The notes under the pieces were generated by a model that had not been told where the DNA came from, searched no databases, and worked only from the letters and a program-made list of their open reading frames with translations. A stretch of DNA of 64,000 nucleotides from Glaciimonas immobilis (GTDB lineage: Bacteria; Pseudomonadota; Gammaproteobacteria; Burkholderiales; Burkholderiaceae_D), in the NCBI RefSeq assembly GCF_011947285.1, contig NZ_JAAOZT010000002.1, positions 496,001 to 560,000 of the forward strand, written 5' to 3'. Positions 43,062-56,160 of the stretch are shown piece by piece. Position numbers and translations under genes: made by a program. How positions within the stretch are numbered: the first letter of the stretch is position 1; the number at the start of each line of letters is the position of its first letter.

Positions 43062-44543
43062 TCAGGCAAATAATCCATGTAAAAACCAGCTGATTTCTTC
43101 TCCTGCACGTTCTCGATACACCCAATAACGCGCCGCTTCACTGCCTTCTGCAATAAAGTAATCGCGCACGGCCAGACCTTCGTCCCACCATCCGGCTTCT
43201 ATTCTTTCCGGCCCTGATAGCAGCCTCAAGGGTGATCCATAAAATGGTCGATGGTCGCGCACCAGAAGCGCTAACGGTTGTTGTAATAGCCAGAATGGCC
43301 GTGGGCTGAGTCGTTCCTGGGTGCTCTGCGCAGGCTTATTCGTCATCTGGTTACTGGCAGCTTGCCAGCTATTGGCTATTTCTGGCCGATGGTCGGCGAA
43401 TGCGGCTGGCATTAATACATTTTCTGCGCCGAGGCGGGCGTTTAATAGTTCTAACAAGCGATGATAGTCCGCTGTGGTGCCACCGGGTTCAGGAAATAAT
43501 GATGCGGTAGGCGGCAACATCGCCGTGACGTGGGTGACATTCAAACGCAGCGCAATGATAGGTGCGCTCAGCTGAAAGCGGTTGAGGCGTTCTTTTAACA
43601 GCCGTAACAAATGTTCTTCATGCCACGCAGGTTCGGCCAATGTTATTTCCAGAGTACTGGGATCAATCGCCTGCCGTCCGCGTTCATGCACCATTGACAG
43701 CACAAAACCGGAGATCGCCAGTTGCTGCGCAGCCAGCCACCCGATCAGTTGCTGGATTAAACGGCGCGTACCGTACAAGACCGCTTCTGCGTGTTCAATC
43801 CTATCCGGCAATTCCAGATATGCCGAGAATTCTTTCGGCGCTTGCACCCATTCAAACATTTCCGGTGCAATGCCAGCGGCACAATCGAGCGCTTCCAGTA
43901 TGCGTTTGTCGCTGCGACGTTGTAATCCGGCGCGGGGTAATTTACGCAAGTCTCCCAGCGTACGGCAACCGATTCCTTCGAGCCACTCCTGATAAGGTCG
44001 GGCGGCGGGCAGTATAGAAAATGGCAATGCTTCAATGTAACGAATCTGCGTTTCAATACGGACACAGCGACGTTGTTTGCGCAAAGGGGAGTGCGCCAGA
44101 TAGCGCGCTAAAAACCACGCCCCCTGAGCTGTTGGTCCCATGCTGATGTGCGCTGTGAAACCAAGCGCATCAATACTTGCACGCACCCGGTGACATAGCA
44201 TTAACCGGCCACCAAAAGCACTCAGGCTGGCGCTGATGTTAATTAGCAGGCTGGCTTCTTCTGCATGCGTGACCTCTGGTGTGTATTGCAATAAGGTGAG
44301 TGCGATTGCATCCAGCGCACTTTGCTCCTTTAAGAGGGAGCGCTCACAAAGCGCGGTGAGGGGTGCGATTGCCATTACGCCGCCGCGTCGCATCCCGTGG
44401 CGTATGCCGCTAGCGGCAGCCTCTGCTGTCATCGTCAATACTTGTTCGTGATCCATTACAGCCAACAAACCAGGCGCAGACCAGCGCGGGCGCAAGGATT
44501 CCAGCGGCAATAATGAAAGGTGTACACCGATCCATAAAGGCAT
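43062..44543 (-). CDS. imuB: ImuB, Y-family polymerase-like adaptor
   Basis: This 493-residue protein has a Y-family fold (LLAVMDHEQVLTMTAEAAAS, GIRHGMRRGGVMAIAP, DRRILEALDCA-type DKRILEALDCAAGIAPEMFE). The metal-binding acids of active Y polymerases are not at their usual places: the N-terminus is WIGVHLSLLPLES, and LINISASLSAFGG replaces the acidic pair. Loss of catalytic acids is typical of ImuB, which acts as the adaptor that brings DnaE2 to the beta clamp. The C-terminal RDYFIAEGSEAARYWVYRER segment is the usual end. Confidence 0.94.
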   Translation of the reverse strand: MPLWIGVHLSLLPLESLRPRWSAPGLLAVMDHEQVLTMTAEAAASGIRHGMRRGGVMAIAPLTALCERSLLKEQSALDAIALTLLQYTPEVTHAEEASLLINISASLSAFGGRLMLCHRVRASIDALGFTAHISMGPTAQGAWFLARYLAHSPLRKQRRCVRIETQIRYIEALPFSILPAARPYQEWLEGIGCRTLGDLRKLPRAGLQRRSDKRILEALDCAAGIAPEMFEWVQAPKEFSAYLELPDRIEHAEAVLYGTRRLIQQLIGWLAAQQLAISGFVLSMVHERGRQAIDPSTLEITLAEPAWHEEHLLRLLKERLNRFQLSAPIIALRLNVTHVTAMLPPTASLFPEPGGTTADYHRLLELLNARLGAENVLMPAAFADHRPEIANSWQAASNQMTNKPAQSTQERLSPRPFWLLQQPLALLVRDHRPFYGSPLRLLSGPERIEAGWWDEGLAVRDYFIAEGSEAARYWVYRERAGEEISWFLHGLFA

Positions 44544-44599
44544 GACATTAACCTCCTAAGTGATCACGTTTAAGAAGGGATCGAAATTATCGACCCACA

Positions 44600-45529
44600 T
44601 CAATCAGGATCCACCCGCGTCAATTCTCGTTGTGCCCACTGTGCCGGTTCAGCAGCCGGGATTAGTACCTCCGAGGGAGTTTTTGTTGACTCTTTGTTTT
44701 GCTCTACCATCCGTTTCGGGCGGTGATTTCTTGCGGTATCGGAACTAATAGTCGGAGTGCTTCCCTGACCGGTTGTCGGTTCAGAAAGCGTTGTGTTTGA
44801 CGATCGTGCTGCGACTTTATAGGATGCACCATCCTCATCATTATCAATATCATTATCGCCCCACGCCAGATAAAGCGATTGGTCATGTTGCGGTCCCCGT
44901 CTTTTGAGGAGTTGCACTTCAATGCCGTTATTAGCCGGACGCAGCAATAGCCGTAAAGGCGCAGGGGAGGATTCATGCGCTGCACTTAAAGGGCGTATCA
45001 TCCACAGCATGGTATCGCTGGCTTGTGCGGCCAGATGAAGGCGGCGCAGTGCATCGGTCCTGATATGTGGCTGCCAGAACAACAGCGCGCCGCAACTTCC
45101 ATTGCGTAAAATTTGCTCAGCCGCCCACAGCGCATCGGCGCTACCCGTAGTCTTGACCCAGAGCATGCGTTGCGTCGCGAGTCCCCACCCACGGCACGCC
45201 GCGATCTGCGGTATATGCGGAGGTTGTAGCAGAATCACCCGGCGATTCTGTTGTGTCAGGGCTGTTAGGACCGGTTGTAATAATTGGATTTCGCCACTGC
45301 CGGCTTGTTGTACTAATAATTCTATCAACGCAGAATGCGGCCAGCCGCCGTTGGGTAATTCCCGATCCAGCGCCGCATGACCTGAGGCCATCACAGCACC
45401 ACGGTAAGATGCCATTTGATTGCCGCGCCACAGTGCATGCGGCAATGTGGCAACCAGAGACTGTGCCGCAGCCGATATGCTGGACACGCGAGGCGGTAAA
45501 ACACGATGTGAAATAGCGGACATAATCAT
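44600..45529 (-). CDS. imuA: ImuA, RecA-like SOS mutagenesis protein
   Basis: This 309-residue RecA/SulA-like protein has TLPHALWRGNQM near the N-terminus, SGHAALDRELPNGGWPHSAL then IELLVQQAGSGEIQLLQPVL in place of a Walker A, and RVILLQPPHIPQIAACRGWG and ALLFWQPHIRTDALRRLHLA further on. It modulates RecA and links to ImuB. The C-terminal 80 residues are disordered. A perfect LexA box stands 84 bp upstream. A second ATG at 45523 is also possible as the start. Confidence 0.93.
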   Translation of the reverse strand: MIMSAISHRVLPPRVSSISAAAQSLVATLPHALWRGNQMASYRGAVMASGHAALDRELPNGGWPHSALIELLVQQAGSGEIQLLQPVLTALTQQNRRVILLQPPHIPQIAACRGWGLATQRMLWVKTTGSADALWAAEQILRNGSCGALLFWQPHIRTDALRRLHLAAQASDTMLWMIRPLSAAHESSPAPLRLLLRPANNGIEVQLLKRRGPQHDQSLYLAWGDNDIDNDEDGASYKVAARSSNTTLSEPTTGQGSTPTISSDTARNHRPKRMVEQNKESTKTPSEVLIPAAEPAQWAQRELTRVDPD

Positions 45530-49031: not shown

Positions 49032-49406
49032 CTAACTATACGTTCTTTTTTAAATGAATTCATTTGATTTTTTTGTAAGGAGCACAACTTAGCCTTTGCC
49101 ATAAGTGATATAGGCTGAAACAAGTCTATTTACATAAAACTCCTACGTTGAAATATTTAAATAAACGTGCGTTTGATTCTGATTCACAAATTTTTTTCTC
49201 GATATGACTATTTATTTCCTAATAGGTAATTTGTGACATTGAAGTTTATCAACACCTCCCATTTGCAAAGTTTTGTTGTATTTGGACGGATAGATTAGCC
49301 TTTTGGTTCTATCGCGTCACCAAAGTCATCGATACGCGCAAGGAGATTACTGACCTTGAAGATAATAGCGAACCGAGATGCTGCGATTTTCGATCGATGT
49401 TAGTCG

Positions 49407-49702
49407 GTGTGCATCCGCTGGTATTTAGGGCTGCCCGTGAGTTACCGCCATTTTGAAGAAATGATGGAAGAATGTAGTGTGGCAGTCGACTACTTATCGA
49501 TCAATAGCTGGGTGCTCAGATTTTTTTCCGTTACTGGGAAGCTCATTCCGTACATACAAGCGTCAGGTTGCTTTAGGCTGGGGATAGATGAGACCATTGC
49601 CCATCAAGCGTCTAACCAATCAGATGCTCAACTTAATTCTTTCGGTCCGTCAAAAACGTATTGGCCGACATCGAACTCATGCACATGATTCGTGAAGGAT
49701 AG
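49407..49702 (+). pseudogene. IS6-family transposase remnant
   Basis: IRWYLGLPVSYRHFEEMMEE, then CSVAVDYLSINSWVLRF, matches the N-terminal region of IS6-family transposases. Much of the middle is gone. In another frame the sequence SFRSVKNVLADIELMHMIRE corresponds to the C-terminal end of that family. It is a deleted, frameshifted copy with no intact ends seen. It lies against the end of the PAS gene. Confidence 0.75.
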
Positions 49703-49796
49703 ATACTAGTCACAGCAATATGATGGCGTATACGATAAGTTTTATGTTTTGGCAAGACAAATCCGTGCAATTTACAGCTGGATAAAAAGTCTGCTA

Positions 49797-50300
49797 TCAA
49801 TCTGATTTTTCTTTGTTAATGCGACAGAACTCCGAAATATCTTGTACGATTATTTGTACTCCCGGCTTACCGAAATAGCTAAATAAAACGCGGCTGACAT
49901 TCACGTCAAGCAAGCGACCATCGCCAAGGTAAGCCTGGCCTTCCCAACTAACAACCGATTCATTTTGAAGATACTTATTTGGCACATAAACCATCAGCGA
50001 ATCGAAAGACCAGCCTAAAAGATCGTCCAAATGTGACGTGCAGAAAAGCCGTTGTGCTACGGCATTAGCGAAGACAATACGTCCATCGACTTCAATTAAA
50101 ATTGAAAACGGTGATAACTCAACCAATAACCTGTAACGCTCCTCACTCTCAAGCAGGGCGACGACTGCGGTTTCGCGCTCTTTTACTTCAAAGTAAAGTT
50201 CCAGTCTTTTTTCGTCCAACAATATTTCTGCTTGTTGACGCGCATTATTAGCTCTGGTCAACCGACGTTCGTACAATTCCTTATCGTAGTTTAGTTTCAT
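49797..50300 (-). CDS. PAS-domain protein without an output domain
   Basis: This 167-residue protein has an N-terminal coiled coil (YERRLTRANNARQQAEILLD, EKRLELYFEVKERETAV), a form common in signalling proteins coupled to H-NOX sensors. One PAS domain follows (EERYRLLVELSPFSILIEVD, GRIVFANAVAQRLF, then DGRLLDVNVSRVLF). It stops at RINKEKSD with no kinase, GGDEF or EAL domain. Its start overlaps the H-NOX-like gene by 20 bp. An IS6 remnant stands directly behind, so an original output domain may have been cut off. Confidence 0.85.
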   Translation of the reverse strand: MKLNYDKELYERRLTRANNARQQAEILLDEKRLELYFEVKERETAVVALLESEERYRLLVELSPFSILIEVDGRIVFANAVAQRLFCTSHLDDLLGWSFDSLMVYVPNKYLQNESVVSWEGQAYLGDGRLLDVNVSRVLFSYFGKPGVQIIVQDISEFCRINKEKSD

Positions 50301-50838
50301 TTAAAATTTTGAGTGTGAATTGAGTATGGGTGCTTTGTTCGCCAGATAAATCTAGCCGGCTTATAGATATCACTTCATTAAAATGGCTGATAGCACCGCG
50401 AATCACACCTTCTGCAATATCCGAAAAAGGAAATTTTGAGCAATATATTAAGATCAATTCCGACGGTTTTCGAAGGAGACAATCAAAACTTGGTAGCTGG
50501 TCTAGGTACAATTCTTTAACCTCTAAAGGCATCTTTTTATCTAAAAAGGATAAAAAACTAAAGGTCGAATAGAGGTCAAAAAGATTTACGCGATTTCTTC
50601 GCATGAAACTCGCGAATAAAAATTTGCCAAAAGCACAGAGCAATAAGCGTTTGGAAATACCTGTTTTGGCACTTAAATGGCCTACTAATTCGACTATTTC
50701 AATATGATCGTATGAGCCAACGGAAGTGTAAGCTCCAGCCGTTTCCAGCGTCGCGATCGACATTACTTCGTCCGCCACTTCGACCGAAAATAACGTCTCC
50801 ATCATAGTTACGAAATCTTGAAAAATAATCCCTTTCAT
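50281..50838 (-). CDS. H-NOX-like (haem NO-binding) protein lacking the haem ligand
   Basis: This 185-residue protein has the complete H-NOX fold: MKGIIFQDFVTMMETLF at the start, AYTSVGSYDHIEIVELVGHL, KRLLLCAFGKFLFASF, and ELILIYCSKFPFSDIAEGVI ahead of GAISHF. Canonical H-NOX has LDxIHxEVxxLYP, where His binds haem iron. Here the aligned stretch is LDKKMPLEVKELY (residues 99-111), with Pro104 at the ligand position. The propionate-binding YxSxR is YCSKF (132-136), so Arg is Phe. Haem binding of the usual kind is therefore unlikely. It overlaps the PAS gene. Confidence 0.82.
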   Translation of the reverse strand: MKGIIFQDFVTMMETLFSVEVADEVMSIATLETAGAYTSVGSYDHIEIVELVGHLSAKTGISKRLLLCAFGKFLFASFMRRNRVNLFDLYSTFSFLSFLDKKMPLEVKELYLDQLPSFDCLLRKPSELILIYCSKFPFSDIAEGVIRGAISHFNEVISISRLDLSGEQSTHTQFTLKILNETKLR

Positions 50839-51089
50839 TTCAATCCTAAAAAATGCATATTTAAGTACGGTGATATGTCGCCTTATCCATGGTAGTTGTC
50901 AAAAAATATCGCCTCGAGCTATGCTGCTTTCTTTAATGCTTCTGGATGACTTCGTTCTGAATTGAGCCAAACTCCTTTTTCAGTGCTTAATCCGAGTGCG
51001 CTGACCAGCGCTCCAGGTGCCGCTGTTTTGCAGCTTCATTGACTTGCTCGCGGTATCTTAGAATCGCTGTATTCCGGTCATCATGGGAC

Positions 51090-51233: not shown

Positions 51234-51644
51234 TGTGGACCTGCTCAATAGGGGAGTGATTGGCCGGTCGCTCATGCTCCGTGTGACGAACGATATGACG
51301 AACGATATCGTGATCGACGGATTGAATATGGCATGGTTTCGCATGTGACCGGCACCAAGCGTTATGCATCATTCTGGTCGTGGCATTAGTACGTCAGCTA
51401 TGCGTTTCAAGCACACCTCAAGGGATTTGGTAGGACCTGCTCCATGAGTCGCAAAAGAAAATGCCAAAGTAATGCTCTGACCGACAACTGGTCCAACCTC
51501 TTCAAGAACCAACGGCATCATGGACTGTGCTACTCCACTCACGCCGAGATGAAGTCAGTTAGCTTTAAGTATGTGGAAGTTTTTTATAATCATAAGCGGC
51601 TACATTCGACACTCGACTATCGATCACCAATCCGGCGTTTATAA
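51234..51644 (+). pseudogene. IS3-family OrfB remnant (C-terminal half)
   Basis: Frames across this stretch give DIVIDGLNMAWFRM, then MHHSGRGISTSAMRFK, NWSNLFKNQRHHGL and HAEMKSVSFKYVEVFYNHKR then LHSTLDYRSPIRRL, i.e. the end of an IS3-group integrase in broken pieces. The last 66 codons form one open frame from 51444. The element is dead and has no visible left end. Confidence 0.75.
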
Positions 51645-52463
51645 TGCTGGCAAACTGAAAAGGAGAAGCAAAATTAGCGGGATAAAATTCGCGCTACAAA
51701 AGAAGAAATATCCACCCAAGGAAATGAACGCTTCCCTCATGATGTGCTAATGGAAGAGTTTCATATAGAAGCTCATAATTCAGTCAGCAGCATTACAAAA
51801 TGCAAATAAATATATCAAGTACTGTGGACTAATATCTTTTAACCCCTCATGATGTTACGGGTAAATAGACATTAAAACTATGAAAAATAAGCAAAAACAA
51901 TAGTAAATTCATGCCATTTTTTCATAAATATAGGCGCCACTTTTTATGATTTTTTAAAATGTATTATAGGAGTGTTGTGATATTTTTTTAACGTATGAAA
52001 TACGGGGTGTAGAAAATCGTGTGAAATCGTATCAATTTTTCAGCGTAATTTCCCGCAGGGGCATTGCCTTCTTTTTGATAATGTTAAGGAGCGCCAAATA
52101 CAACGGCTTGCTCACGGCACCACACCGGTAACGCTAGTCAGTGCTGGCATAAACGAGTTATCGCAATACCGGGCGTGGCCCAATCTGAAACGAAGTGCGT
52201 CGGATTTAGTAAAGATGGTTGCATGAAATGACGCGACAGGTGGCTTGACGGAGGCTGATGGGGAGGGCGCCGATTAAATTTACTTCGTTTGATTAACTTA
52301 CAAATAACGCAATAGAATTTGCAAGAAAGTGAATATGAATATTCCCTGTTCCAGCAAATCCATCCACTACTTTTACCTGCCATGCCCAAGCTAGAAGTGC
52401 CTTTTATTATTTATTTATTCACTAGCGCCCTGTATTCGCCTTTGTATTCGCCCTTGTATTCAG
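51645..52463. other. AT-rich non-coding stretch
   Basis: No gene is supported. An 83-codon frame at 52138-52389 (minus) is low-complexity and has no ribosome site. Several poly-A/T tracts and no hairpins with U-tracts were noted. Confidence 0.5.
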
Positions 52464-53123
52464 TTAAATGTAAACTAACGTAAGGGTACCGGAACCACTT
52501 GGCGTGATCGCAGAGGTCGCGCCCTTTACATAAGCAGTGCTAATATAAGATGTCATTATCAGGCTTCCCGCAAGCGTTGTAAAAGAGTCCGGTGTCGTGG
52601 CACCAGCCAGCTTGGCAAAGCCAATGGTGTATCCCGGCGCAGCATAATAGGCAGGAAGATTGTTGGGGCCGGTCCCCGTCCAGCTCGTGGTGTTGTTGGG
52701 AGCATTTAAGAATTGACCCACTGCGACAGTGTCGATAACAGTATTGACAAAACTTATCTGAAACGAACCAATAGCTGCCGTTCCTGCACCATCCACCATG
52801 CCATACCGAATAGCATCATTCGCATCCAGGGCAAATGTTTTCCCTGGCTTGTTATCCACAAAAGATACTTCCACTTTGGTGGGTGCAGAGCAGATAATGC
52901 TAATGGGTACCAACACATTTGGCATGGCATAGGAGGTGCCAACTACGGCATAAGTTTTGATAAGCGATGTTGAAATCGAACCAAGGTTGACTGCTCCTCC
53001 CGTCAAGGCCACATTGCACGCATCGGGTGCAATCGTTCCGGTCACTCCAAAAGCTGAACTACTCGCATTGGCGTTAATGACCGTTGCCAACAGAGTGCTA
53101 GCTATAAGTATTTTTTTGAACAT
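52464..53123 (-). CDS. DUF1120-type fimbrial subunit, copy 1
   Basis: This 219-residue exported subunit has signal peptide MFKKILIASTLLATVINANA. The mature part begins SSSAFGVTGTIAPDACNVAL and contains one conserved Cys (ACNVAL) and a second in SIICSAPTKVEVSFVDNK, a likely disulphide. It ends GSGTLTLVYI, the beta-strand that donor-strand exchange needs in chaperone-usher pilins. It is one of three copies of identical length. The ATG at 53123 is chosen by the signal peptide. Confidence 0.85.
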   Translation of the reverse strand: MFKKILIASTLLATVINANASSSAFGVTGTIAPDACNVALTGGAVNLGSISTSLIKTYAVVGTSYAMPNVLVPISIICSAPTKVEVSFVDNKPGKTFALDANDAIRYGMVDGAGTAAIGSFQISFVNTVIDTVAVGQFLNAPNNTTSWTGTGPNNLPAYYAAPGYTIGFAKLAGATTPDSFTTLAGSLIMTSYISTAYVKGATSAITPSGSGTLTLVYI

Positions 53124-53168
53124 GATTTTCAATTCCAAAAATAATAATTTGGGAAACGTGATGTACCT

Positions 53169-53214
53169 CTTTTAACCCCAACAATTAAAAGCGGGTATTT
53201 ACCGGAAGGGTAAA
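53169..53214 (-). promoter_or_regulatory. Two-hairpin leader of DUF1120 copy 1
   Basis: CTTTTAA (53169-53175) pairs with TTAAAAG (53185-53191), loop CCCCAACAA. TTTACC (53198-53203) pairs with GGTAAA (53209-53214). The element lies 46-91 bp before the start and is almost the same in all four copies. Confidence 0.6.
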
Positions 53215-53389
53215 ACTAAAATAATTTAAAATTAGACGCGTAATTGTCGATCGCTATTTATTCAAGAACGGTCACCGTCAAGCGACCTGTCGCCTATTTC
53301 AAGCAGCAATCTTTACTAATTCCGGTTCACTTCGTTCGGGATTGAGCACACCTGATATTACAATATTCAGTTTATGGTAGCACCTGACC

Positions 53390-53530
53390 ATCGTTGCGGT
53401 GTGCATTTTCTCGCTACCCCATAGGCGTCTTTACGTTGCTTGAATCTCGTTTGTACTTTTTATCATGCCGTTGCGTGGTGTGACGAATTTCAGTCCACTG
53501 TGCTTGTGCTGATGGTTGGCCAACGCACAA
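53390..53530 (-). pseudogene. IS3-family OrfB C-terminal remnant, copy b
   Basis: The minus strand reads ANHQHKHSGLKFVTPRNGMI and then KSTNEIQAT and TAA. The motif matches the C-terminal end of IS3-family OrfB and the remnant near 51100. An OrfA-like remnant lies just beyond on the other strand. Confidence 0.5.
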
Positions 53531-53599
53531 ACTCCCTATGTCAGCATAGATGTCGCGTCATTTGATTTTTATAAATGTATTAGGGGTGGAGCAAAGTCG

Positions 53600-54065
53600 T
53601 GAAGTGAAACGTTATTCCGCAGAACGAAGGAAGCCTTTTTGAGGCGAATGATGGCCTCAGAATGCTCTCAGAGCTGGCCCGTGAGAACGGCACCTCAGAA
53701 ACAGCCCTTCTATAATTGGCGACGCCAGTTAAAAACAGAGGGAGTGCCGATGCGGGGTAACGGAGGAATGCTGAAGAATGGTAATTTGAGGTGGTGCTGT
53801 AGACGGTGCATATCAATGAAGCCGAGATGGCCGAATATTGCCGAATCAAAGCTTTGTTCGTCCAGCAAATTGCTATGCGGCGTGAAGCCTGTCAGGACGC
53901 CGACGCACACTCTGCAGAGTGTCAGCAGACCAAGCGTGAGGAGGGTAAAAATCACCGCAATGAAATCAAGCAGCTGAAGAAGGAATTGCAGCGCAAGGGA
54001 AAAGCACCGGCCTAGGCAGCAGAGCTGATCATTTTGCGAAAAAAAGCCGGGCTATCTGGGAGATC
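53600..54065 (+). pseudogene. IS3-family OrfA remnant
   Basis: Broken frames give YNWRRQLKTEGVPMRGNGGM, then HINEAEMAEYCRIKALFVQQ, IAMRREACQDADAH and KHRNEIKQLKKELQRKGKAPA-type coiled coil, finishing near ELIILRKKAGLSG. This resembles the OrfA of IS3-group elements. Frames change at least twice. It separates pilin copies 1 and 2. Confidence 0.6.
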
Positions 54066-54251
54066 AAGTGAACCCGACACTGGGTATTAAAGAACGAGGT
54101 TCGGCTCAATCTGGAACGAAATCAGCCAGAAACACTAAAGCAAGCACCCTAACTTGACCCGTCAACTTTGTTGACAACTATCGTTTTCCTAATAAATTTT
54201 GCTAATTGTGTACGTCAAAGAGCGGGCGCATTGAAAGCGCCCTGTATTGAA

Positions 54252-54911
54252 TTAAAGGTAAACCAGCGTCAGGGTACCGGAACTGGTTGGCGTGATGGCA
54301 GCGGTTGCACCCTTTACATAGGCAGCGCTAATGTAAGGGCTCATTATCAGGTTTCCGGCAAGCGTTGTAAAAGAATCCGGTGTCGTGGCGCTGGCCAGCT
54401 TGGCAAAGCCAATTGTGTAGCCGGGCGAAGCAAAAATGGCAGACAGATTGCTGGGGCCGGTCGCCGTCCAGGTCGTGGTGTTGTTGGGGGCGTTTAAAAA
54501 TTGACCCACTGCGACGGTGTCGATAACAGTATTGTTAAAATTTATTGCAATCGAACCAATAGCTGCCGTTCCTGCACCATCAACCATGCCATACCGAATA
54601 GGATCATTTGTATCTATAGCAAATACTTTCCCTACCTTGTTGTCCACAAAAGAAACTTCCACTTTCGTGGGTGCCGAACAGACGATGCTGATGGGTACCG
54701 CCACAGATGGCATTGCATAGGAGGTTTGCGCTAGGCCATAACCTTTTACAACCGATGCGTTAATCGAACCGAGGTTGACTGTTCCCCCCGTCAACGTCAC
54801 ATTACACGCTTCGGGCGTAATCGTTCCGGTCACTCCGAAAGCTGAACTGCTTGCATTGGCATTAATGATTGTTGCCAACAGTGCGCTTGCTACTAGTACT
54901 TTTTTTAACAT
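54252..54911 (-). CDS. DUF1120-type fimbrial subunit, copy 2
   Basis: This 219-residue paralogue of copies 1 and 3 has signal peptide MLKKVLVASALLATIINANA and mature start SSSAFGVTGTITPEACNVTL. The two Cys positions and the LTLVYL end are conserved. It differs from copy 1 mainly around the loop NLSAIFASPGYTIGFA, where surface-exposed variation is expected. The start has the same leader as the others. Confidence 0.85.
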   Translation of the reverse strand: MLKKVLVASALLATIINANASSSAFGVTGTITPEACNVTLTGGTVNLGSINASVVKGYGLAQTSYAMPSVAVPISIVCSAPTKVEVSFVDNKVGKVFAIDTNDPIRYGMVDGAGTAAIGSIAINFNNTVIDTVAVGQFLNAPNNTTTWTATGPSNLSAIFASPGYTIGFAKLASATTPDSFTTLAGNLIMSPYISAAYVKGATAAITPTSSGTLTLVYL

Positions 54912-54955
54912 GATTTCAATTCCATAAATAATAATGTGGGAAACGTGATGCACCT

Positions 54956-55003
54956 CTTTTAACCCCAACAATTAAAAGCGGATATTTTTACCCATAGGGT
55001 AAA
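54956..55003 (-). promoter_or_regulatory. Two-hairpin leader of DUF1120 copy 2
   Basis: CTTTTAA (54956-54962) with TTAAAAG (54972-54978), and TTTACCC (54987-54993) with GGGTAAA (54997-55003). The second stem has one extra pair relative to copies 1 and 3, a compensatory-type change that favours a folded element. Confidence 0.6.
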
Positions 55004-55216
55004 GTTAATAATTTAAAATTGACGCGTCATTGTCGATCGCTACTTATTCAGGAACAAGTTACGTAGATACACGGATTCAGACTATCTCCATTAAATAGAT
55101 GTTTTAGAAATAAATTTTCAGACGAACATAATTGCGATACAACTTTTTTTCCTAAACTAAACTTTGATGATTGTGTACGTCAAAAAACGGGCGCATTGAA
55201 AGCGCCTTGTATCGAA

Positions 55217-55876
55217 TTAAAGGTAAACCAGCGTCAGGGTACCGGAACCGGTTGGCGTGATAGCCGCAGTTGCAGACTTCACATAAACACCGCTAATGAA
55301 AGTGGAAAACGTTAGGTTTCCGGCAAGTGTTGTAAAAGAATCTGGTGTCGTGGCGCCGGCCAGCTTGGCAAAGCCAATTGTGTATCCTTGCGCGCCAAAA
55401 GACGCAGGAAGACCGGTGGGGCCGGTTGCAGTCCAGGTCGTGGTGTTGTTGGGAGCGTTTAAAAATTGACCCACTGCGACGTTATCGATAACCGTACTGG
55501 TAAAACTCGTTTGATACGTACCAATAGCTGTCGTGCCTGCACCATCCACAATGCCATACCGAATGGCATCATGCGCATCCAGAGCAAATACTTTCCCTAC
55601 CTTGTTGTCCACAAAAGAAACTTCCACTTTGGTGGGTGCCGAGCAGATGATGCTAATGGGTACTAACACATTTGGCATTGAATAAGAGGTTCCGAGCGTC
55701 CCATAACCTTTTACAACCGATGTTGAAATCGAACCGAGGTTGACTGTTCCCCCCGTCAATGTCACATTGCACGCTTCGGGCGTAATCGTTCCGGTCAATC
55801 CGAAAGCTGAACTGCTTGCGTTGGCATTAATGATTGTTGCCAACAGTGCGCTTGCTACCAGTACTTTTTTGAACAT
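55217..55876 (-). CDS. DUF1120-type fimbrial subunit, copy 3
   Basis: This 219-residue subunit has signal peptide MFKKVLVASALLATIINANA and mature start SSSAFGLTGTITPEACNVTL. Its sequence lies between copies 1 and 2: the NVLVPISIICSAPTKVEVSF stretch follows copy 1 and the N-terminus follows copy 2, suggesting gene conversion. It should be exported, bound by the chaperone at 59879-60601 and polymerised at the usher. Confidence 0.85.
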   Translation of the reverse strand: MFKKVLVASALLATIINANASSSAFGLTGTITPEACNVTLTGGTVNLGSISTSVVKGYGTLGTSYSMPNVLVPISIICSAPTKVEVSFVDNKVGKVFALDAHDAIRYGIVDGAGTTAIGTYQTSFTSTVIDNVAVGQFLNAPNNTTTWTATGPTGLPASFGAQGYTIGFAKLAGATTPDSFTTLAGNLTFSTFISGVYVKSATAAITPTGSGTLTLVYL

Positions 55877-55920
55877 GATTTTCAATTCCATAAATAATAA
55901 ATTGGGAACGTAATCCACCG

Positions 55921-55966
55921 CTTTTAACCCCAACAATTAAAAGCGGATATTTACCGGTAAGGTAAA
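55921..55966 (-). promoter_or_regulatory. Two-hairpin leader of DUF1120 copy 3
   Basis: CTTTTAA (55921-55927) with TTAAAAG (55937-55943), and TTTACC (55950-55955) with GGTAAA (55961-55966). Spacing to the start codon is conserved with copy 1. Confidence 0.6.
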
Positions 55967-56160
55967 TTAATAATTTAAAATTGACGCGTCATTGTCGAGC
56001 GCTATTTATTCAGGAACAAGTTATGTAGATCCATGCATTCAAATTATTTCCAGTGAATATATGTTTAAAAATAATTTACCACCGAATCGACGGACCTTGT
56101 GCCTCGGAGAATACTCTTTCATGGAATATTGTTAATATCAACAGAACATCCACTAATTGC

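Follow-up and report, generated by a model that had tools for sequence, protein, structure and literature searches.

An H-NOX protein without the histidine that ligates haem could be a sensor in decay or a protein put to some other use. Such a protein is encoded in the window, a 64,000-nucleotide stretch of Glaciimonas immobilis DNA, where its gene overlaps that of a short PAS protein and lies close to a broken insertion sequence (Table 1). The question addressed here is what this gene pair once was and what has become of it.

Table 1. Features of the H-NOX locus (positions in the window)
Feature	Position	Strand	Basis
H-NOX (HNOB) protein, 185 aa, lacking the proximal His	50281..50838	-	ORF list, profile match and alignment
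Pro104 codon (CCT), haem-ligand column	50527..50529	-	Sequence and homolog alignment
Phe136 codon, replacing Arg of YxSxR	50431..50433	-	Sequence and homolog alignment
Possible H-NOX ribosome-binding site, AGGA	50844..50847	-	By eye
Truncated partner gene, 167 aa, coil and PAS, no GGDEF or EAL	49797..50300	-	ORF list, profile search and homology to ortholog
Final codons of partner ORF, IS-end sequence	49797..49832	-	End of ortholog homology (49833); IS-type terminal repeat at 49813-49831
Decayed IS6-type element, both terminal repeats, internal deletion	49305..49831		Transposase similarity and matching ends

The H-NOX protein matched Pfam HNOB (PF07700) over residues 2 to 160 (2.7e-24; 86.4 bits; cut-off, 25.5). 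Its AF2 model, built on an alignment of H-NOX relatives, had a mean pLDDT of 82.6, and the best Foldseek matches of the model were H-NOX structures, with TM scores of up to 0.86. The fold is thus retained, as the preliminary description of this DNA had proposed. The best PDB match by sequence was 6ocv from Shewanella woodyi (9.6e-24). Among the structure matches listed was 2kil, the structure of an engineered H103G mutant, and a literature search for that mutant found no paper. A promoter scan returned one site against 4.5 expected.

The same description had placed Pro104 at the proximal histidine position and read the YxSxR motif as YCSKF, and alignment bore out both statements. The ligand column held His in all 84 other homologs, some of them near-identical (the search for relatives kept the best 80 of 503); with L009 and L038 removed, it was His in 82 of 82. 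At the Arg column of YxSxR, where the window protein has Phe136, the 84 others had Arg (77), His (6) or Lys (1). The further claim that both haem contacts are lost holds for the histidine and the arginine but is too strong as worded, because Tyr132 and Ser134 of the motif are kept. Pro116, Gly71 and Gly144 are also present, which in our own mapping would be the proximal proline and the hinge pair. In all, the protein kept 31 of 37 columns conserved at ≥95%, and it deviated at 8 of 43 columns conserved at the 90% level, compared to 6 at most among 82 others. Inspection by eye was suggestive of a clustering of these losses on the haem side.

Compared to haem-binding, NO-sensing H-NOX proteins, the window protein thus lacks the proximal histidine and has an incomplete YxSxR motif. 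With both the histidine and the propionate arginine gone it should not hold haem normally or sense NO, and we infer from these residues that both activities are absent. That it is still a haem protein, with the iron held by Met103, Cys133 or Cys120, for example, or by a ligand from outside, seems very unlikely. Tyr132, Ser134, Pro116 and the fold would favor such binding, but the only histidines are at positions 45, 54, 152 and 171 and the only cysteines at 68, 120 and 133, the alignment with homologs placed no conserved histidine near the ligand column, and the arginine of YxSxR is missing too. Furthermore, helix F is predicted to be broken at Pro104 (H92-101 and H105-110; pLDDT of 57 for residues 101 to 110), whereas the model of an ortholog from the same genus (genome G002) has a helix at H99-110 (pLDDT, 72).

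In order to place Pro104 within the family, homologs with other residues in this column were sought more widely. Within the window's own family there were 58 HNOB matches, from 53 of 392 genomes, and 56 of them had His; the other two were the window copy, which was also the weakest whole-profile match (86.3 bits; next, 121.2), and a copy cut by a contig end. The proline form was therefore found in one genome only among both the 84 homologs and the 58 family matches. In a survey of the phylum (114 loci, L169-L282, from 103 of 398 genomes, with the window copy and L001 excluded), 62 loci had His at the ligand column, which is approximate in this survey because the divergent sequences were added to an existing alignment. 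Sorted by eye, the 52 others comprised 17 of family f88, 33 with a "DILEH"-like sequence, one lone sequence (L206) and one that was cut (L280). Homologs without the histidine thus exist as lineages in the phylum and in the published group 5, and there are none among the 84 close homologs. The idea that Pro104 is unique in the whole H-NOX family is ruled out by the survey and by the consulted part of a review (PMC8738867), and proline at the ligand column is not new to H-NOX proteins. As far as these samples and the consulted parts of the papers go, the HaCE branch, to which the closest relatives belong, had no earlier example of it.

The survey also brought out several kinds of HNOB protein that differ from the window protein. 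Many of the 33 "DILEH"-like sequences have a histidine about 8 residues before the approximate ligand column that is a candidate ligand. The f88 proteins at L283-L290 are 195 to 216 amino acids long, lack YxSxR and have Pro (five), Asn, Ala or Ser at the ligand column, as read against L001 in an alignment that misplaces the window protein. A gene for 329 to 360 amino acids lies downstream in seven of these eight loci, with GGDEF and HNOBA in both that were tested; the set resembles the published group 5. The other large set consists of longer HNOB proteins, of 417 to 449 amino acids in the seven read at full length (L291-L295, L297 and L298), which have no His where the ligand column approximately lies. 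Three were tested for PilZ, two of which exceeded the Pfam cut-off, and several retain YxSxR together with a cysteine motif like CMLxxAPLCR. It is possible that they are haem-free H-NOX domains fused to a c-di-GMP receptor; in many, the histidine about 8 residues upstream may be an alternative ligand. L206 (L296:2461-3000) encodes a 179-amino-acid HNOB protein with ELDDRVKK and no His in the ligand region and with a YxSxR-like YYSTR.

The ortholog in G002 indicates what the gene pair once was. This H-NOX protein is 59% identical to that of the window over 177 amino acids and has both the His and the Arg, and it is followed by a 594-amino-acid partner in which profile searches found PAS, GGDEF and EAL domains. 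Judged from sequence, the pair is laid out as an H-NOX/HaCE operon (HaCE, H-NOX-associated c-di-GMP enzyme, a term used in the consulted part of PMC12329717). The operon's H-NOX protein is present in two of the five genomes of the genus, and of 90 loci searched, 26 have a HaCE-type partner immediately downstream, with similarity that starts in its N-terminal part (counted by us from a table in which some loci overlap). In the window the two genes overlap by 20 bp (50281-50300), compared to 14 bp in the ortholog. Gene coupling, which the preliminary description took as kept, is thus retained as an overlap, but the partner is a truncated stub, which had escaped notice. It consists of a coil, seen by eye, and a PAS domain, found by profile search, without the GGDEF and/or EAL domain of an H-NOX/HaCE operon, so the stub should be unable to make or break c-di-GMP. 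No close copy of the missing GGDEF-EAL half was found elsewhere in the genome; the other GGDEF-EAL matches are at most 45% identical, and its relocation was rejected on these grounds. The genome has a second H-NOX gene, whose product retains the His, followed by genes that read as histidine-kinase-like and GGDEF-EAL-type.

The truncation coincides with the end of an insertion sequence. Homology between the partner and its ortholog stops at 49833, and the adjoining terminal repeat ends at 49831. The element, which we take to belong to the IS6 family, has transposase similarity over 63 amino acids (tblastn, 3.5e-10), and its ends match those of an IS6-type element in G002 with an intact frame. 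No duplication was seen in the 8 bases flanking it. Simple insertion, with the remainder of the enzyme gene on the far side, was rejected, given that there is no target duplication and that nothing in the window matched GGDEF-EAL. None of the five IS6-type transposase matches found in the genome is complete, so the truncation is probably old, although the relic may already have been degraded when it arrived beside the partner gene. In G002, too, an IS6-type fragment abuts the 3' end of the partner gene, which is full length there.

Other mobile or repeated DNA was noted at both loci. Upstream of the full-length operon, G002 carries near-identical IS6-type copies in opposite orientation (L014:8435-9252 and L014:10442-11077). 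In the window, a fragment of an integrase core (rve_2; 51444-51644) is a further remnant of a transposon close to the H-NOX gene, and a gene at 52449-56077 is present in three tandem copies (83 to 86% identical DNA) with a weak DUF1120 match just above the cut-off. Two adjacent minus-strand genes at 43062-45529 resemble an ImuB/ImuA mutagenesis cassette.

With the haem ligand lost and the partner cut by an insertion sequence, the pair is probably what is left of a signalling switch. The ancestor would have been a haem NO sensor in one operon with a PAS-GGDEF-EAL c-di-GMP enzyme. The GGDEF-EAL half would have been lost through the IS6-type element, most simply by adjacent deletion, and the H-NOX protein would have lost its proximal histidine and propionate arginine; both the order of these events and the deletion mechanism are conjectural. 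Loss of the usual NO-to-c-di-GMP function appears well supported by the sequence, since haem ligand, propionate arginine and GGDEF-EAL output are all gone. Reuse and recent decay, between which the preliminary description had left the choice, are not separated by the data. We lean toward the reading that the pair is a disarmed remnant of an H-NOX/HaCE operon, decaying and probably without a present role. The missing output domain, the restriction of the proline form to one genome, the predicted break in helix F, the number of conserved columns at which the protein deviates, the faster change on the window side and the presence of a second, His-bearing H-NOX protein favor decay. Restriction to one genome would also be expected if Pro104 were a sequence or assembly error, but this is exceedingly improbable: Pro104 is among many changes (the protein departs from the G002 ortholog at ∼41% of 177 residues), the gene has also lost a codon, the partner is truncated, and the frames are clean.

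The rate at which the protein has changed bears on both decay and retention. In trees of 10 proteins, none from group 5, the window H-NOX protein grouped with G002b (support, 0.996 in FastTree and 100 in IQ-TREE), and its closest relatives among the best 80 of 503 were of the HaCE type. Its branch was 3 to 4 times as long as that of its sister (0.62 versus 0.19 in FastTree; 0.78 versus 0.20 in IQ-TREE). Window-side changes exceeded sister-side changes with all five outgroups (21:9, 22:14, 26:11, 25:9 and 20:18), significantly in three of the five without correction (P = 0.04, 0.24, 0.02, 0.009 and 0.87). For the PAS part the counts were 11:11, 16:4, 10:7, 7:11, 13:8 and 12:6, one of six being significant, and there was no consistent acceleration. 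Pairwise omega was 0.18 for H-NOX and 0.15 for PAS, with synonymous sites near saturation (pS, 0.69). Under a clock that gave the two sister branches equal time, omega was 0.31 for the window, 0.18 for the sister (2dlnL for the difference, 4.0) and 0.067 for the background, and an omega of 1 on the window branch was rejected (lnL, -4031.69 versus -4018.25). Without the clock, a model that gave the window branch an omega of its own, above that of the background, was preferred (2dlnL, 17.4), and this omega was indistinguishable from 1, with estimates of 10 (the bound) or 1.68. As a control, the canonical H-NOX proteins of G000 and G004 are 84% identical, with an omega of 0.12 and changes of 5:6. 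The data are compatible both with a relaxation that came late, after a long period of constraint, and with a haem-free function that persists.

It is possible, though we hold it only tentatively, that the protein has been retained as a haem-free pseudo-H-NOX. It would then keep its fold and be selected for binding either to the short PAS protein or to a different c-di-GMP enzyme, and it may be locked in a single signalling state. Against decay, the H-NOX and partner frames have neither stop nor frameshift beside an insertion sequence that has an internal deletion and a broken frame; in simulation, both survived 13% neutral drift with a P of ∼0.006, counting nonsense changes alone. The omega of 0.31 under the clock, the conserved columns that were kept and the lack of consistent acceleration in the PAS part point the same way, and the consulted parts of two papers offer precedents in the prolines of group 5 (PMC8738867) and in guanylate cyclase (sGC alpha and the activated-like sGC beta H105C; PMC8196705). 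However, the output enzyme is gone, the proline form is in one genome only, an intact H-NOX frame by itself would be no surprise (P = 0.20 after ∼31 neutral replacements, our rough estimate of the excess), an omega of 1 is compatible with the data when no clock is imposed, and the relic may have rotted before reaching its present site. A bolder form, in which an independent His-to-Pro haem-free H-NOX in the HaCE branch was selected together with a stand-alone PAS protein made by the insertion sequence, turning a sensor pair into a protein-only module, is rather unlikely.

As a disarmed remnant, the locus would record the dismantling of a gas-sensing c-di-GMP switch, in which an insertion sequence was linked to the loss of output and the haem ligand went as well, with both frames remaining open, and it would place a His-to-Pro H-NOX protein outside group 5. 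If the protein is retained after all, the His-to-Pro change has had at least two origins, and a direct test of haem-free H-NOX proteins is worthwhile.

Among known systems, the window pair most resembles the SwH-NOX/SwDGC type of S. woodyi in its kind of H-NOX protein, its overlapping gene order and the coil-PAS start of its partner, as in G002. It differs from such H-NOX/HaCE operons in lacking the proximal His, Arg136, GGDEF and EAL. In the consulted part of PMC7108781, the proximal histidine is described as absolutely conserved in a network of 598 relatives of the Vibrio cholerae H-NOX protein. Group 5, the large Paracoccus denitrificans cluster, has the histidine in <10% of its members and proline in most (PMC8738867, section 10). 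The window protein shares with group 5, as portrayed in that section, proline at the ligand column and retained glycine hinges, but appears to fall in another branch, as placed by the tree without group 5 proteins. The group-5-like f88 proteins lack YxSxR and have a GGDEF gene downstream in the two tested, whereas the window has YCSKF and a PAS stub. According to the consulted part of PMC8196705, sGC alpha contains a haem-free H-NOX domain, and the H105C change leaves human sGC beta without haem and similar to its activated state. The window protein, with its presumed loss of haem, would likewise be an H-NOX fold without haem, but the sGC alpha domain is part of a eukaryotic heterodimer and a distant fold match (6jt0_A; TM, 0.53). 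Redox-sensing H-NOX proteins of V. cholerae and Caulobacter have a Cys-ligated zinc site (consulted parts of PMC7108781 and PMC12329717). Such a site, three cysteines and a His or Gln in the C-terminal part, was rejected for the window protein on the positions of its cysteines, and these proteins show, as far as those parts describe them, that signalling by an H-NOX protein can be independent of haem.
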